30,586 nucleotides of DNA from a virus. This document shows positions 23,724 through 30,586 of the stretch, piece after piece (within the stretch, counting starts at the first letter, position 1; the number at the start of each line of letters is the position of its first letter). The DNA is taken from IMG/VR virus record IMGVR_UViG_3300050821_023955, positions 1-30,586 of that record; one strand, given 5' to 3'. The position numbers were made by a program, and so were the translations under genes. The notes under the pieces were generated by a model. That model made no database searches, was not told the origin of the DNA, and worked only from the letters and a program-made list of their open reading frames with translations.

Positions 23724-25109
23724 TCAGTCGCCGTTGTCTTCGTCGGCGACGACGCCGGTGAGGTCCGCGATGGCGAAGCTCGACGGCCGCCACACGGGGA
23801 ACGCGATCCGCGTCTCCGCGAGGATCGTCACCCGGTTGCGAACGAAGTCGTCCTGATCGCTGTCGCTGGTCTTGACGTTCACACCTTCGCGAACGAGCAG
23901 CGAGCAGCCCATCGAGTCGCCGACCAGCGGCTTGGTCGCCGGGATGGCGCGGCTTGTCGTGAGCACGAGGCCCCAGATCGTTTGCGCCGCGATGCCGCCC
24001 GGCAACTGGCCCGGGGTGCCGTAGATGTAGTTGCCGTTCGCGTTCTTCATGAGGAGGAGGTTCTGCCACGTGATCGGGTTCAGAGCCGCGAAGTTCGGCT
24101 CGCCGTCAGAGAGCACGATCACCGTGATCGCGCGCAGCACGACGTCGGCGATGTTGTCGTCGGCCTCTGCCGCCGCCTGGCCGACGCCGACGGTGTTGTA
24201 GATGCCGGTCAGGTTCTGGCCGGTGCCGCTGCCGTTGAGAACCTGCGCGAGCACCTTGCGGCGCACGTCGAACGGCAGCAGCATGTTGAGCATCGACCCG
24301 AGCCCGGCCGTGTCATCGAGCGCCGCGCGCTGGACCTTGATCCAGCCGGCGATCGTGCGGACCGGCGCCGAGGCGTCCAGCAGGGTCAGCCCGGACTGCG
24401 GCTTGATGGAGCCCTCGGCGACAACGTCGGCGTGGCCGGGGATCGCGATCACCTGCACGTACTCGACGCTGTTTGAGTCCGTCGTGCCGGCCGGGATCAT
24501 GTCCAGCAGCGACAGGCTCATGAGGTTCGGGGGAACGATGCCCTGGTAGTCCGGGCGGATCGCCCCGCCCATCCCGCCGGAACCGATCGGACCCGGGGGC
24601 GCCGTCGGCAGCTCCGCGGCCAACGACCGCGAGCGCAGGAAGCTCAGGGCCTCGTCGCGGTTGGCGAGCTGGCCCAGCTCGATCGTGCCGAACTTGCCCG
24701 TCGAGGAGAACAGGCCGCGTTGCCGCGCCTCGGTGTAGGCCGCTGAGCCGGCGAGCAACCGGTGGCCGTTCCAGCCGGCTGCACCCTGCTGCGCTGCCGC
24801 GCCGAGCGTCTCCGCGTGGCCGTTGTCGTGACCGTTGGACTCGCCCAGCAGCCGCAGTAGCGCGACCTCGGAATCCTGGTGGGAGGCGATCTCATCCCTG
24901 AGGTCACCGACCTTCTTGACCGCCTGCTCGGCGGCCTTGAACTCCGATGTCTCGGTCAGCTTCACGTCCTCGGCGAAGTTCGCGCCGCCGAATGCTTCCT
25001 TGGCGGCGTCCTGTTCCTTGCGTGCCGCGACCAGACGGCTGCGCAGATCCGCGAGCTGCTCGCGTATGCGCTGGAGTTGGTCGCGGATTCCGCTGTCTGC
25101 GACGGGCAT
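23724..25109 (-). CDS. Major capsid protein, HK97 fold, with N-terminal scaffolding region
   Basis: 461 residues. The first ~80 residues form a charged coiled coil ('RDQLQRIREQLADLRSRLVA', then 'RKEQDAAKEAFGG'), the delta domain that acts as scaffold and is normally removed by the head protease. The rest is the HK97 capsid fold: 'AEGSIKPQSGLTLLDASAPV', then 'RTIAGWIKVQRAALDDTAGL', 'VRRKVLAQVLNGSGTGQNLT', then 'GIYNTVGVGQ', 'TTSRAIPATKPLVGDSMGCS', and 'ILAETRIAFPVWRPSSFA' at the end. AGGAGG lies five bases before the ATG, the best ribosome-binding site in the window together with that of the tail tube. Confidence 0.93.
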   Translation of the reverse strand: MPVADSGIRDQLQRIREQLADLRSRLVAARKEQDAAKEAFGGANFAEDVKLTETSEFKAAEQAVKKVGDLRDEIASHQDSEVALLRLLGESNGHDNGHAETLGAAAQQGAAGWNGHRLLAGSAAYTEARQRGLFSSTGKFGTIELGQLANRDEALSFLRSRSLAAELPTAPPGPIGSGGMGGAIRPDYQGIVPPNLMSLSLLDMIPAGTTDSNSVEYVQVIAIPGHADVVAEGSIKPQSGLTLLDASAPVRTIAGWIKVQRAALDDTAGLGSMLNMLLPFDVRRKVLAQVLNGSGTGQNLTGIYNTVGVGQAAAEADDNIADVVLRAITVIVLSDGEPNFAALNPITWQNLLLMKNANGNYIYGTPGQLPGGIAAQTIWGLVLTTSRAIPATKPLVGDSMGCSLLVREGVNVKTSDSDQDDFVRNRVTILAETRIAFPVWRPSSFAIADLTGVVADEDNGD

Positions 25110-25125: not shown

Positions 25126-26469
25126 TTAGGGCTGTTGGCCCATCACGGCCAGCAGGCGCTCCCTTTCGGTCGACGTGTACGTGACTGGTTCAGGTGATGG
25201 ATCGAGATCGACCGACGCTTCGCTGCGGCGCCGCTCGAGCGCGGCGCGGCCGGCGGGGCTCGCGACCCTGCGCACGGTGTCCCCGAGCGTGCCGACGGCA
25301 TCCGCGAGCCCGGCGGCCCTGGCCTGGCGCGCGTGGAACATGCGCCCGCCGCCGAACGCGGCGCCGTCATATGCCGGGACGTCGACGCCACGGCCGCGGG
25401 CGACCGCGCGGACGAACATGCGGTAGTAATCGTCCACGTCGCTCTGCATCGCGGCGCGTGCCTCGTCGCCGAGCGGCTCGTAGGGGTTGTCCTCGACCTT
25501 GTACTTGCCGGCTGAGATCAGGGTCGGCTTGATGCCGGCCTGCTCGTGCGCGGCGGACAGGTCGAGGTGACGCTGGTAGACGCCGACCGAGCCGACTTCG
25601 CCGGAGTCGGTCACGACAATCTCGTCGGCCTGTGACGCGAGCCAGTAGGCCGCGCTGGCGACCTGCGTGTTCGCGACCGCGACGATTGGCTTGGTCGCGC
25701 GCGCCGCGCGGATCTGGTCGGCGGTCTCGGGGATCTGGTCGACCATTCCGCCGGGCGAGTCAATGTCCATCACGATCACGTCGACCTCGGGGTCAAGGGC
25801 GGCGTCTGAGAATTGGGTCTGGAAGGTCTGCAGGCCGCCGCCGCCGAACAGCAGCGCGAACAGGCCGCCCATCTGCGGCATCAGCACGCCCTTGAGTGAC
25901 ACGACCGCGACACCGCCGCCGCTCCGGGACGGCCGGCGCGGCTGCGCGGCCTCGGTTGCGAGCTGCGTTTCGGTGTCGATCAGCGCGGTGTCGAGCGCGT
26001 ACAGCGCCCCGAGCACGCGCCGGTCAATCGCCCAGGCGCGGTGGTCGGCGAATAGGCGCACGCCGGCTGTGAGCACGGCCTCAGGCAGCGTGGCCACGCG
26101 GCTGGCGACGAACTCGTCACGCTCGGCTTCGCTGCTGCTGTCGCGCTCGTCGTTGAATCTGTCTATGTGGCGTTGAAGGACCGAGCGGACGTCGTCGCGA
26201 TCGGCCTCAGGAACGCGCGACTGCGGCAGCCGTGACAGCGCGTTTCGGCAGCCGTTGACGTTCGCGGAGGCAACGCGGCCGTTGTTGAGCACCTCGTGGT
26301 GCGGGAGCGCGTAGGCGGCCTTCGTGTCCTCGTCGCCGTCGGGGTCGCGCCAGGCGTACATGCGCTCAAAGACGGCGCGGCCGGCGTCGTTGTCAATGCG
26401 CGCCTCGCTGGCGGGGCCGTCCCACGGCTGGTCAACGACAGGGGTGTTGCGGAACGGAGTCGCGGGCAC
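25126..26469 (-). CDS. Head maturation protease, S49 (SppA/SohB) family, with N-terminal domain
   Basis: 447 residues. Residues 185-400 are an S49 serine protease: 'VAVVSLKGVLMP', 'VDVIVMDIDSPGGMVDQIPE', nucleophile S272 in 'NTQVASAAYWLASQ', 'GEVGSVGVYQRHLDL', and Lys partner K322 in 'ISAGKYKVEDNPYEPL'. Residues 35-110 ('MYAWRDPDGDEDTKAAYALP', then 'HHEV', then 'GCRNALSRLPQSRVPEADRD') resemble a domain found at the start of several phage head proteins, here fused to the protease. The GTG start is the only one between an upstream in-frame stop and the domain. It sits before the capsid gene, whose delta domain it should remove. Confidence 0.9.
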   Translation of the reverse strand: MPATPFRNTPVVDQPWDGPASEARIDNDAGRAVFERMYAWRDPDGDEDTKAAYALPHHEVLNNGRVASANVNGCRNALSRLPQSRVPEADRDDVRSVLQRHIDRFNDERDSSSEAERDEFVASRVATLPEAVLTAGVRLFADHRAWAIDRRVLGALYALDTALIDTETQLATEAAQPRRPSRSGGGVAVVSLKGVLMPQMGGLFALLFGGGGLQTFQTQFSDAALDPEVDVIVMDIDSPGGMVDQIPETADQIRAARATKPIVAVANTQVASAAYWLASQADEIVVTDSGEVGSVGVYQRHLDLSAAHEQAGIKPTLISAGKYKVEDNPYEPLGDEARAAMQSDVDDYYRMFVRAVARGRGVDVPAYDGAAFGGGRMFHARQARAAGLADAVGTLGDTVRRVASPAGRAALERRRSEASVDLDPSPEPVTYTSTERERLLAVMGQQP

Positions 26470-26502: not shown

Positions 26503-26751
26503 TTAGGCCTGAGGGCGGTTTCGCAGTATCGCCGGATATCTTGCGGCCGTGTTGCCGACCATCGCGAAATGCGCGCTCGTGTCGCCGCAGGAGCGCGTGT
26601 GCCCGGAGCGTAGGTTGCCCGCCCAGACGGCGGTCCGCCGGCCGCAGTCACACCGGCACCAGTAGCGCGACTCACGCCAGTCGTTCTGTCCCTCGATGCC
26701 CTCGACAGTGAGCATCCCGAACCGCTGGCCGCTGAGTGACCCGCGGATCAT
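26503..26751 (-). CDS. Small zinc-finger-like phage protein
   Basis: 82 residues from the ATG overlapping the portal stop (ATGA); a longer frame mirrors the portal end. The pattern 'LSGQRFGMLTVEG', 'YWCRCDCGRRTAVWAGNLRS', 'GHTRSCGD' matches a small protein seen in many phages, with Cys at 32, 34, 36 and 55, likely to bind zinc. The last Cys of the usual S-C-G-C motif is Asp57 here. Its function is unknown; relatives often lie near homing HNH or AP2 genes, so it may be a moron gene inserted between portal and protease. Confidence 0.72.
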   Translation of the reverse strand: MIRGSLSGQRFGMLTVEGIEGQNDWRESRYWCRCDCGRRTAVWAGNLRSGHTRSCGDTSAHFAMVGNTAARYPAILRNRPQA

Positions 26752-28178
26752 GCCAACGCTAGGTCGTAGTCGCGGTCCTTTGAGCGCACGTGCAGTCGGT
26801 GGCCGACCGGCTGCGATGAACCGGGCCACGTCGCCGTGGGCATCGGCGGCGAGCCGACCGGCTGCAGGTTGTTGAACGGCAGGTAGAACTGATCCATCCC
26901 GGGGGAGACCGACTTGGCCATGTTGAGCACGCCGCGGCCCTCGTTGGGGGTCATCAGCGCCGAGCTGATGGCTTCGCGCAGCGCCTGGATTTCCTGTAGC
27001 CGGTCGCCGCGGAGCACCACGCCGAAGTCGAACTCGACAAAGATGTCGGGCTCGGCCATCAGCCGCCAGACGAGCTGCGCGTTGACCGCCGCTTCAAGCA
27101 GGATCAGCGGCGGCCCGAGGCACTCGGTGTAGATCATCTCCCGCTGGGTCTCGATATTGCTGTAGGTCGCCCGGTCGAGAATTCCGAGCATCGGCGGCGG
27201 GATCATGTAGACGCCGCAGATCTCCTCGCGGACGACTCGGCGCTGCTCCATCAGCTCGGCCTCAAATGAGGCGTGCGTCAGCGGTTTCCAGTCAAGGCCG
27301 GGCGGCAGCAGCGCCGGCTTGCCGGCGTTCTCAGGCCCGGCGTAGATCTGGTTCAGGTCGGCGCGGAGCTGGTTGAGAACCTGCTGGCGCTCCGCGCGCC
27401 CGAGACCCAGAAACTCGTTCGACTGAGTCACCGCGGACGGCGGGCGGCCGGCGTTGGCGAAGGTCGCACGGGTGAAGCGCTGCGCCGCGTCCTCGATCTG
27501 GATGGAAACGCCGAGCTGCTGTAGCGGTGACACGCCGAGCGGGCCGGCGGGCGACCAGTAGGCGATGTGGAGCACGTTGTCGACCGACACCTCGCGCATC
27601 AGGTCGGGCTCATCGACGTCGAGCTTGAACCCCTGTAGCGAGTCCCGCCAGGCGTAGATCGGTGAGCAGTAGCGCCAGTCCTTCGGCGTAAAGGTGATCG
27701 CGTCGTTCGCGCCGGACTCGATGTGCGTGACGGAGTTACCGTGCACGAGCACCGGGCCGAGCAGCGACATGATCAGCTGCGGCGCCGAGCGGCCGTCCTG
27801 GTGCAGGATCGCGGCAGCGAGCGGATGGTCCCATTCCCGCAGCCGCGTCCGGTCGGCGGGGTCGATGCCCTCTCGCCGGTAGACCTTCAATGGCACTCTG
27901 ATGGCCCACGTCAGCATGCGCATCACCGCCGCGGCGATCCACGGCTGGGCCATGAACAGGCGGGCGAACGATACGGGCCGGCCGCCGACTGTCCACAGCG
28001 CGATCGGCGGGTCGTACTCGCTCCAGGAGGCGCTGTTCAGGTCGCCGCGCCCGGGCGCGACCTGCACCCTGCCGGTGCCGACGTTGTCCGGTGTCGGCCA
28101 CACCGGGCCGGCATGGCGCTCGCGGCGCCGCTCCTCTAGCCGCGCGACCCGATCCTCACGCTCTTGCTGTGTCTCCAT
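26748..28178 (-). CDS. Portal protein, HK97 family
   Basis: 476 residues. Twelve copies form the ring through which DNA enters the head. 'SFARLFMAQPWIAAAVMRML', then 'TWAIRVPLKVYRR', 'LIMSLLGPVLVHGNSVTHIE', 'VLHIAYWSPAGPLGVSPLQQ', 'FANAGRPPSAVTQSNE' and 'EICGVYMIPPPMLGILDRAT', then 'YSNIETQREMIYTECLGP' are clear family motifs in the right order. The C-terminus is Pro-rich. It starts four bases after the large terminase stop, which is the normal head gene order. Confidence 0.94.
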   Translation of the reverse strand: METQQEREDRVARLEERRRERHAGPVWPTPDNVGTGRVQVAPGRGDLNSASWSEYDPPIALWTVGGRPVSFARLFMAQPWIAAAVMRMLTWAIRVPLKVYRREGIDPADRTRLREWDHPLAAAILHQDGRSAPQLIMSLLGPVLVHGNSVTHIESGANDAITFTPKDWRYCSPIYAWRDSLQGFKLDVDEPDLMREVSVDNVLHIAYWSPAGPLGVSPLQQLGVSIQIEDAAQRFTRATFANAGRPPSAVTQSNEFLGLGRAERQQVLNQLRADLNQIYAGPENAGKPALLPPGLDWKPLTHASFEAELMEQRRVVREEICGVYMIPPPMLGILDRATYSNIETQREMIYTECLGPPLILLEAAVNAQLVWRLMAEPDIFVEFDFGVVLRGDRLQEIQALREAISSALMTPNEGRGVLNMAKSVSPGMDQFYLPFNNLQPVGSPPMPTATWPGSSQPVGHRLHVRSKDRDYDLALA

Positions 28179-28181
28179 CGC

Positions 28182-29708
28182 TTACAACGGTTCGATCCTG
28201 TAATCCGACAGGTTGCCAGCTAAACGCGGCGGCGTCGAATCAGGTACGAGCGCCCGCGCTTCCCAGGCAAGTACAGCAGCGAGTGCGGCAGCAATCGGCG
28301 CGTCATGTTGGAGGTCCGGTGCGAGGTACATGTGACCGCGGGAGATGCTGACGCGCGCCGCCAGGATTGCGGCCCCTAGGCGTCGGTCGCCGTCGTGGGT
28401 GACTTGCCCGGAGCGCGCGTCGGCGCGGAACCGTTTGACGATCTGCTCGGTGCGAGGGCTCGCCAGCTCAGCGTGAACTTCGACCACTCGCTTGCGCCCC
28501 ATGTCCCGGCGCCAGCCGTCCGCGAGCGAGCGCCACTCCGGGCTCGTTGAGGAGAACACGACGTTGACGCGGTACTCGGCGACCGCGCGCTGTAGAGCCG
28601 CGTCGGCCTGCTCGTGGGAGTCAGGCTCGCCGGCCTCGCCGGCCCCGATAGTGAACAGGCTGCCGTCCCGCCGGCAGGCGACAAGCGCCCAGCTATCCGA
28701 CGCGCGGAACCCGAGCGTCACTTGGTCGTTGCGGTCGATGGTCAGGGCGACGTCTTCAAGCGCGCGCCACTCCTCCAAGGTGAGAAACGCGCCCGCGCTC
28801 GACGCCCAGACACAGCCGTGTAGCTGCAGGAACCGGCCCGGGGTGAGCTTCGGTGACTTTGACAGCGCCGCGAGCCGCTCGGTCGATATCCACGACGCGG
28901 GGTTGGCGGCGCGCACCGCGTCCATGTCCTCCGGATCGTCAGTGTTGGCGCAGTAGTTGTAGACCAGGGTCCGGGACTCGTGGTGCCGGGAGATCGTCAG
29001 CCCGCGGTGCACCCGTTCCAGTTGCCCGTCGCGCTCGTTTGAATCGAGGAGCTGCCCGAGGATGCCCTCGACCCGCTCGTGCGGCTCGCCGGCGTGGCTG
29101 ATGACGAACACGCGCGCCGCCTCGCGGGTCAGCTCGCCGGCCGTCGCGATATCCGCCCAGGTGCGGCGACGGCGCGGCGTGTTCCATTCCGCCAGCTCGT
29201 CCACCACGACGGTCGACGGGTTGTAGCCGGCGGCGGCGCCCGTGTCACCGGACACGCGGTAGAGCGTGCCGAAGGTGCCGATGTGCGCTATCTGCCCCTC
29301 GTGCTCACGGATGATTAGCCGCGCACCCAGCCACGGGTCGGACTTGACGTAGCGCACGGCCGCGTCGAACAGCCGGCCCGCCTGCTTGTCGGTCGCGGCA
29401 GCGAGCAGGATCTCCGGGGCGCCGTCGTTCTCAACCAGCTCGTACAGCGCATAGGCGGCCAGCAGCGCGGTCTTGCCGTTCTTCTTCGGCAGCACGAGCA
29501 CGACGGTCTGCCAGTAGGCAACGTCCTCGTCCAGCTCGGCGAGCGCCTCGTCCATCATCGGCCGCTGCCAGTCGGGCTCGAGTATCAGCGGCAGGCCGGC
29601 GAACCGGTCCGTTGATTGAAAGCAGTGCTCGGCGCACCACCAGGCGAAGTGCTCGCCGCGGGTGGCCTCCGCGTAGCCCTCCCAGCGTTCGCGGGCTACG
29701 ACGACCAC
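28182..29708 (-). CDS. terL: Terminase large subunit with altered nuclease site
   Basis: 508 residues. The packaging motor. The ATPase is intact: Walker A 'VLVLPKKNGKTALLAAY' (70-86), Walker B 'STVVVDELAEW' (165-175), coupling motif region 'VFVISHAGEP'. The C-terminal half aligns well with RNase H-like terminase nucleases, but the usual acids are absent: the family 'GFDGS' is 'GFRAS' (R335), the second-strand 'ADP' is 'SSTSP' (386-390), and the final 'KIDAAVA' is 'DAPIAAALA' (469-477). The surrounding 'THDGDRRLG' is kept. The start is GTG. Followed closely by the portal. Confidence 0.9.
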   Translation of the reverse strand: MVVVARERWEGYAEATRGEHFAWWCAEHCFQSTDRFAGLPLILEPDWQRPMMDEALAELDEDVAYWQTVVLVLPKKNGKTALLAAYALYELVENDGAPEILLAAATDKQAGRLFDAAVRYVKSDPWLGARLIIREHEGQIAHIGTFGTLYRVSGDTGAAAGYNPSTVVVDELAEWNTPRRRRTWADIATAGELTREAARVFVISHAGEPHERVEGILGQLLDSNERDGQLERVHRGLTISRHHESRTLVYNYCANTDDPEDMDAVRAANPASWISTERLAALSKSPKLTPGRFLQLHGCVWASSAGAFLTLEEWRALEDVALTIDRNDQVTLGFRASDSWALVACRRDGSLFTIGAGEAGEPDSHEQADAALQRAVAEYRVNVVFSSTSPEWRSLADGWRRDMGRKRVVEVHAELASPRTEQIVKRFRADARSGQVTHDGDRRLGAAILAARVSISRGHMYLAPDLQHDAPIAAALAAVLAWEARALVPDSTPPRLAGNLSDYRIEPL

Positions 29709-29809: not shown

Positions 29810-30586
29810 TCACTCGACCGCTCGCAACCGCCTACGCGGCGGCCCGGCCGCGCGGTCAGCCGCCGAGGCCGCGCCCGGTGGGCGGCCGGCGCCGATGTGC
29901 CGCGCCAGCTTCATCCGCGAGAGCGGGTCAAGGCCGAGCTGCGCGGCGAGCTGCGCGGCCTCGCGGCGCGCCATCGCGATCTGCGCCGGCAACGGGTGCG
30001 GCACCTCGGCCGAGCCGGTCGCGCCGCCGAGCGTCATCACCGGGCGGCCCTCGTGCTCCCAATGCGCTTGCAGCGAGGCGACGGCCGCGACGGACTCGGC
30101 GTATCGCTCGACCGCGCCCGCGCTCAGCTCAGGCGGCTCGCCGATCCTCGCGAGCGTCATCTGCGCCTCGGCGCGCGCGCGGTCCGCGGCCAGCTCGGCG
30201 ATCGCCGACGTGTCGAATGGCTCCTTCTCGTCATGCAGGCGCCGTTCGAGCATCCAGGTCGCGGCGTGCCAGTCCTCGCTCGCCGCCTTCGAAACCTGCG
30301 CCACGTTGCGGACCTCGGCCTGCGCGCGCGCCGCGTGCACGTCGGCGGCGAACTCGACGTAGGGCTCCCGCCCGCCCGCGCCGCGCGCGATCCAGTCCCG
30401 CACGGTCGCGTCACCGAGGCCGCACGCCCGCGCCGACGCGCGGATCGAGTTGCCGGCGCGGAGCATTCCGAGCAGCCGCGCGGCCAGCTCCGGCGTGTAG
30501 GCGGTGCGCGCGTGCCGCAGGTGCGGCCCGCAGTAGCTCTCGCCGGCCAGCGCGTCCCGGCGGCAGCGGTGGCCGGTCCGCGTCAT
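29810..30586 (-). CDS. Terminase small subunit-like protein (HTH)
   Basis: 258 residues, with the ATG on the last bases of the window, so an upstream extension cannot be excluded. A Cys/His motif at the start ('CRRDALAGESYCGPHLR') could bind zinc. Next is a helix-turn-helix ('AGNSIRASARACGLGDATVR', then 'DWIARG', about 44-69) of the type small terminases use to bind packaging sites. A long helical middle follows ('AQAEVRNVAQVSKAASED'). The end has 'AAQLGLDPLSRMKLA', typical of small terminases. Direct position before terL supports the call. Confidence 0.75.
   Translation of the reverse strand: MTRTGHRCRRDALAGESYCGPHLRHARTAYTPELAARLLGMLRAGNSIRASARACGLGDATVRDWIARGAGGREPYVEFAADVHAARAQAEVRNVAQVSKAASEDWHAATWMLERRLHDEKEPFDTSAIAELAADRARAEAQMTLARIGEPPELSAGAVERYAESVAAVASLQAHWEHEGRPVMTLGGATGSAEVPHPLPAQIAMARREAAQLAAQLGLDPLSRMKLARHIGAGRPPGAASAADRAAGPPRRRLRAVE

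Follow-up and report, generated by a model that had tools for sequence, protein, structure and literature searches.

What becomes of genome packaging when the large terminase (TerL) lacks the acids with which its nuclease would cut DNA? This question is raised by an open reading frame in an IMG/VR virus record that is 30,586 bases long. The stretch, here called the window, represents about 30 kb of a genome expected to reach 40 kb. The 508-amino-acid product matches TerL families in both Pfam (PF03354; E value, 3.6e-9) and PHROG (phrog_9; E value, 1.8e-49). An initial annotation of this DNA had described the frame as undamaged, the Walker motifs as intact, the nuclease half as full length and alignable, and all three nuclease Asp residues as replaced. 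It left open whether other acids serve, another nuclease cuts, or DNA is packaged without specific cutting. The first two descriptions hold, as the frame runs for 508 codons from a GTG start without an internal stop and both Walker motifs are present in full (Table 1). The gene stands in a recognizable packaging and head module, with the small terminase (TerS) upstream and the portal, S49 protease, and HK97-type capsid genes downstream. Elsewhere in the window are genes for a tail sheath, a tape measure, tail fibers, two endolysins, a repressor-like protein, and a RecT-like annealing protein, and the source of this fragment is most likely a phage with a contractile tail.

Table 1. Features of the TerL locus in the window, with the TerL region of contig L121 in the last row
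Feature	Position	Strand	Remarks
terL, large terminase, putative nuclease-dead variant	28182..29708	-	508 aa
Walker A PKKNGKT, TerL residues 74-80	29469..29489	-	intact
Walker B VVVDE, TerL residues 167-171	29196..29210	-	intact
RNase H-like nuclease domain, TerL residues 329-487	28248..28724	-	AlphaFold2 and Foldseek; catalytic Asp lost
R335 (HK97 catalytic D302)	28704..28706	-	Arg in 20/20 clade TerLs
S387 (HK97 catalytic D388)	28548..28550	-	Ser in 19/20, Ala in 1/20 of clade
A473 (HK97 catalytic D471)	28290..28292	-	Ala in 16/20, Ser in 4/20 of clade
D465 (HK97 active-site K463)	28314..28316	-	Lys in no clade member
terS, small terminase	29810..30586	-	PF05119, phrog_4102; contig stops within or at terS
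Portal protein	26748..28178	-	PF04860
Head maturation protease, S49-type	25126..26469	-	
Major capsid protein, HK97 fold family	23724..25109	-	PF05065
L121 TerL, with an Endonuclease VII gene on either side	39-491, 472-2070, 1902-2531 (of L121)		PF02945

In HK97, the TerL nuclease site is formed by D302, D388, and D471, with K463 contacting both D302 and D471 (PMC9410871). Alignment with HK97 and other TerLs places R335, S387, and A473 of the window TerL at the three catalytic positions, so the Asp residues are indeed all replaced. The motif comparison behind the original claim was correct except in the third motif, which had been read as APIAA, one residue out of register; in our alignment, K-I-D-A-A corresponds to P-I-A-A-A.

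These replacements are shared by a group of related proteins. Scans of viral contigs with the window TerL, and then with growing alignments, recovered further members of what we refer to as the clade: 20 IMG/VR TerLs including that of the window, 18 of them distinct, which are 54 to 100% identical and are all encoded by open frames. Every one has Arg, then Ser or Ala, then Ala or Ser at the three catalytic positions, whereas all 101 other aligned TerLs, HK97 included, have Asp at each (DDD TerLs); the TerL of contig L121, with K, D, and I, stands apart from both counts. Trees built from the ATPase half, from the nuclease half (first five members), and from the complete protein without the motif columns (18 rows) all unite these proteins in a single clade (support, 100/100), and the nearest DDD relatives are about 45 to 50% identical to them in the ATPase half. 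Since one clade appears in all trees and its members share the same triple loss, the Asp residues would have been lost once, before the clade diversified. Judged from sequence, the triple loss is a single ancient event and not chance or a one-off mutant. The clade occurs in many metagenomes. When 84,980 bacterial and archaeal genomes were scanned first with a single sequence and then with a five-row alignment, neither scan returned a relative of this TerL, and among isolated phages no close TerL was found, the best matches to the window and L054 TerLs being at most about 31% identical. Two of the clade contigs, L003 and L022, join their TerL to a portal type that differs from that of the window (SPP1-like by eye), a difference indicating that TerL and head modules have been exchanged. 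Another, G042 (also L298), carries an integrase gene and, at 1666-2679, a Ku-domain gene.

The position of the active-site Lys has changed as well. Of 98 aligned DDD TerLs, 97 have Lys at this position, which is equivalent to HK97 K463. None of the clade members does, and among the 18 included in that alignment, 11 carry Asp instead. It is possible that D465 is a charge-swapped partner of R335. A salt bridge between R335 and D465 does not hold as a rule for the whole clade, however, because position 465 is Asp in only part of it.

The nuclease half is nevertheless retained. AlphaFold2 predicts a confident RNase H fold for this domain (mean pLDDT, 91), and the best Foldseek match in the PDB is HK97 TerL (6z6d), with the nuclease domains of G20c, P74-26, and Sf6 also matched; the half is full length and alignable, as described. 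In nine clade pairs, the dN/dS of the nuclease half is 0.18 to 0.48, with every 95% interval below 1; these values equal or exceed those of the ATPase half in the same pairs, and more distant, saturated pairs reach 0.59. Taken together with the model, the sequences suggest that the nuclease half is very probably dead by descent, yet retained as a domain. We also considered whether TerL might still be an active nuclease, its metal site rebuilt from D338, the acid at position 410, D430, and D465. Some of these residues are well conserved, since positions 338 and 410 are D/E in all 20 members (E410 in the window, a clade-specific gain) and D430 is Asp in all 20. Of the other substitute acids named initially, E391 is not conserved, D465 varies as noted above, and E483 is conserved but sits some ten residues inside the C-terminal helix, whose first residue is 473. 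A working two-metal site appears unlikely because an invariant Arg replaces the central metal-binding Asp, and we know of no RNase H-type nuclease without its first-strand Asp. We therefore regard a rebuilt, active site as quite unlikely, in disagreement with the first of the options offered initially, and predict with high confidence that TerL is nuclease-dead.

Does cutting continue in these phages? The contig ends of clade relatives coincide at a conserved joint next to TerS, outside the window. Situated between an HNH endonuclease gene and TerS, the joint reads GAGCAAG^CTCAC, or has CTGAC or CCCAC after the caret, and CGGAAAT or a near variant lies 18 to 19 bases past it. It is read through in eight clade contigs, seven with GAGCAAG and one (G003) with GGGCTAG^CTCAC. 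Three separate IMG/VR records (G001, G002, and G035) start exactly at ^CTCAC, right after the heptamer; G034 starts at the homologous base, 18 bases before CGGAAAT, the same as G001 and G002; and G036 and G029 have an identical first stretch (18 bases). Support came from scanning the viral collection twice for exact patterns: hits in clade contigs lay at one constant distance from the contig end, and the remaining hits were scattered. A cos site yields just such a mixture of cut and uncut forms, so cutting apparently continues, and the contig ends, as indirect evidence of physical ends, suggest that the clade phages still cut at one fixed site. No terminal repeats were found in G034, G036, G041, or G042, and the right-end sequences of G034 and G036 gave no clean alignment to an uncut relative. 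A similar clustering of contig ends at TerS is seen in the DDD sister group, where many contigs (L012 and L062-L094) end about 365 to 485 bases upstream of TerL, near a CAGAAAT or ACGGA-like motif, as would happen if the genome end were fixed. It may be possible to find cos sites on a large scale from the ends of public metagenomic contigs.

These ends bear directly on the readings that dispense with specific cutting. Loss of the nuclease site would suit a domesticated or gene-transfer-type particle, the nonspecific packager suggested in the initial annotation, or a decaying prophage. The exact terminal base common to contigs argues against both, as do the open frames and purifying selection, the RecT-like protein and endolysins of the window, and the presence of primase-like, methylase, or integrase genes (integrase in G042) in contigs of about 40 kb; we find either hardly credible. 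If instead preformed unit-length genomes were packaged, as in phi29, a terminase cut would not be needed and fixed ends would be expected, and phi29 gp16 offers a known precedent for a vestigial TerL nuclease domain (PMC7672431). However, the clade phages have TerS, a TerL of full size, and an HNH gene at the joint, and no protein-primed polymerase was seen among the genes tested in a partial annotation. Moreover, eight clade contigs read through the joint where four others end, which indicates that ends are joined and cut. We consider phi29-like packaging very improbable.

A candidate for the cutter is the HNH protein (phrog_144) encoded at the joint. Seven clade contigs either extend 2.5 kb or more upstream of TerL or approach 40 kb in length (G003, G004, G032, G033, G034, G036, and G037), and the HNH gene occurs in all of them; it was later found in G041 and G042 too. 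The gene either immediately precedes the joint or, in contigs of about 40 kb, occupies the opposite end. The latter holds for G034, of 40.3 kb, and G036, of 39.1 kb, where it is 91 to 200 bases from the contig end opposite TerS, the layout of HK97. The catalytic His and Asn and the zinc-type Cys residues are conserved among the clade HNHs. The mere presence of an HNH gene was rejected as a discriminator, as many DDD relatives carry one, and the subtype was used instead. When the HNH alignment was used for a scan, nine hits shared at least 47% identity with the query, and every contig encoding one of them also has a TerL of the clade; two of these contigs (G041 and G042) were found through the HNH alone and not through TerL. 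Three weaker matches accompany DDD TerLs.

The search of the flanking DNA for a nuclease, proposed in the initial annotation, thus succeeded in all seven relatives that could be judged and found no HNH within the window itself, which fits the absence of the right part of this genome. The window lacks the HNH gene and the joint because the contig ends at TerS, and by analogy with its relatives the phage would carry both beyond that end. The option that another nuclease cuts gains support, since all clade members whose contigs extend far enough have an HNH with intact motifs beside the conserved genome-end site. From its position and motifs, this HNH probably makes the terminal cuts. A different cutter, either a PD-(D/E)XK-like gene product encoded near TerS or a host nuclease, seems unlikely: a small PD-(D/E)XK-like gene (PF11645) does lie beside TerS in L022 (1388-1858, between HNH and TerS), and similar sequence is found at the left ends of L051 and L120, but most members show no such gene in that interval; the HNH, in contrast, occurs in every one that could be assessed.

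We propose, then, that TerL and TerS would still recognize the genome and that the TerL ATPase would pump DNA through the portal, while the RNase H-like domain would no longer cut and would stay as a structural part docking to the portal, TerS, the HNH, or DNA. The small HNH, encoded just upstream of the cos joint, would be recruited by the TerS-TerL complex to cut the genome ends. We infer that TerL has no residual activity and that the HNH is the nuclease, cutting both strands. We consider it likely that these are cos-type phages whose terminal cuts are made by the HNH and whose TerL serves as a packaging ATPase, its nuclease domain being kept for structure. We lean, somewhat less firmly, toward a fuller version in which all terminase cutting has been handed to a dedicated HNH as the initiating and terminating nuclease, TerL has become a pure motor, and the active site has been refitted structurally (Asp to Arg, Lys to Asp). 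A plausible history is a TerL and HNH system whose TerL nuclease became dispensable.

If true, this would be a fourth packaging arrangement beside a cutting TerL (cos or pac) and phi29. A literature search found no report of an inactive nuclease together with an HNH in terminases. An entire clade with TerS and a full-length TerL that lacks the catalytic acids would amount to a natural separation-of-function experiment, a chance to learn which cuts the HNH makes by itself in HNH-type packaging machines and which roles the nuclease domain has beyond cutting. It also warns that packaging mode should not be inferred from TerL family alone.

Among known systems, the HK97 cos machine (TerS, TerL, and the HNH protein gp74) is similar in its TerL fold, as the 6z6d match indicates, in the order TerS-TerL-portal-protease-capsid, and in carrying the HNH gene toward the right end of the genome, with TerS at the left. 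HK97 TerL is stimulated by gp74 (PMC9410871); unlike the clade TerLs, which lack all four residues, it keeps D302, D388, D471, and K463. In phi29 gp16 and its relatives, a packaging ATPase keeps an RNase H-like domain that has lost catalysis (PMC7672431), as we predict for the clade; however, phi29 has no TerS, a smaller protein, and protein-capped unit genomes, whereas the clade has TerS, a full-length TerL, the HNH, and a cos-like joint. The nearest HNHs in isolated phages are those of the actinophages phiSASD1, Dubu, NBR1, and Gudmit, which lie about 60 to 360 bp from the right genome end with TerS and TerL at the left end, but the TerLs of these phages are all D, D, D. Finally, L121 (IMGVR 3300021081_000002) has lost two of the three catalytic Asp residues (motifs GFK..., VVADQQ, and YIIGA). 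It lies elsewhere in the tree, and its neighbors are genes for Endonuclease VII, another HNH-like (His-Me) nuclease, rather than the HNH subtype of the clade. This one contig hints at a possible convergent loss of the TerL nuclease, an independent parallel to the clade.
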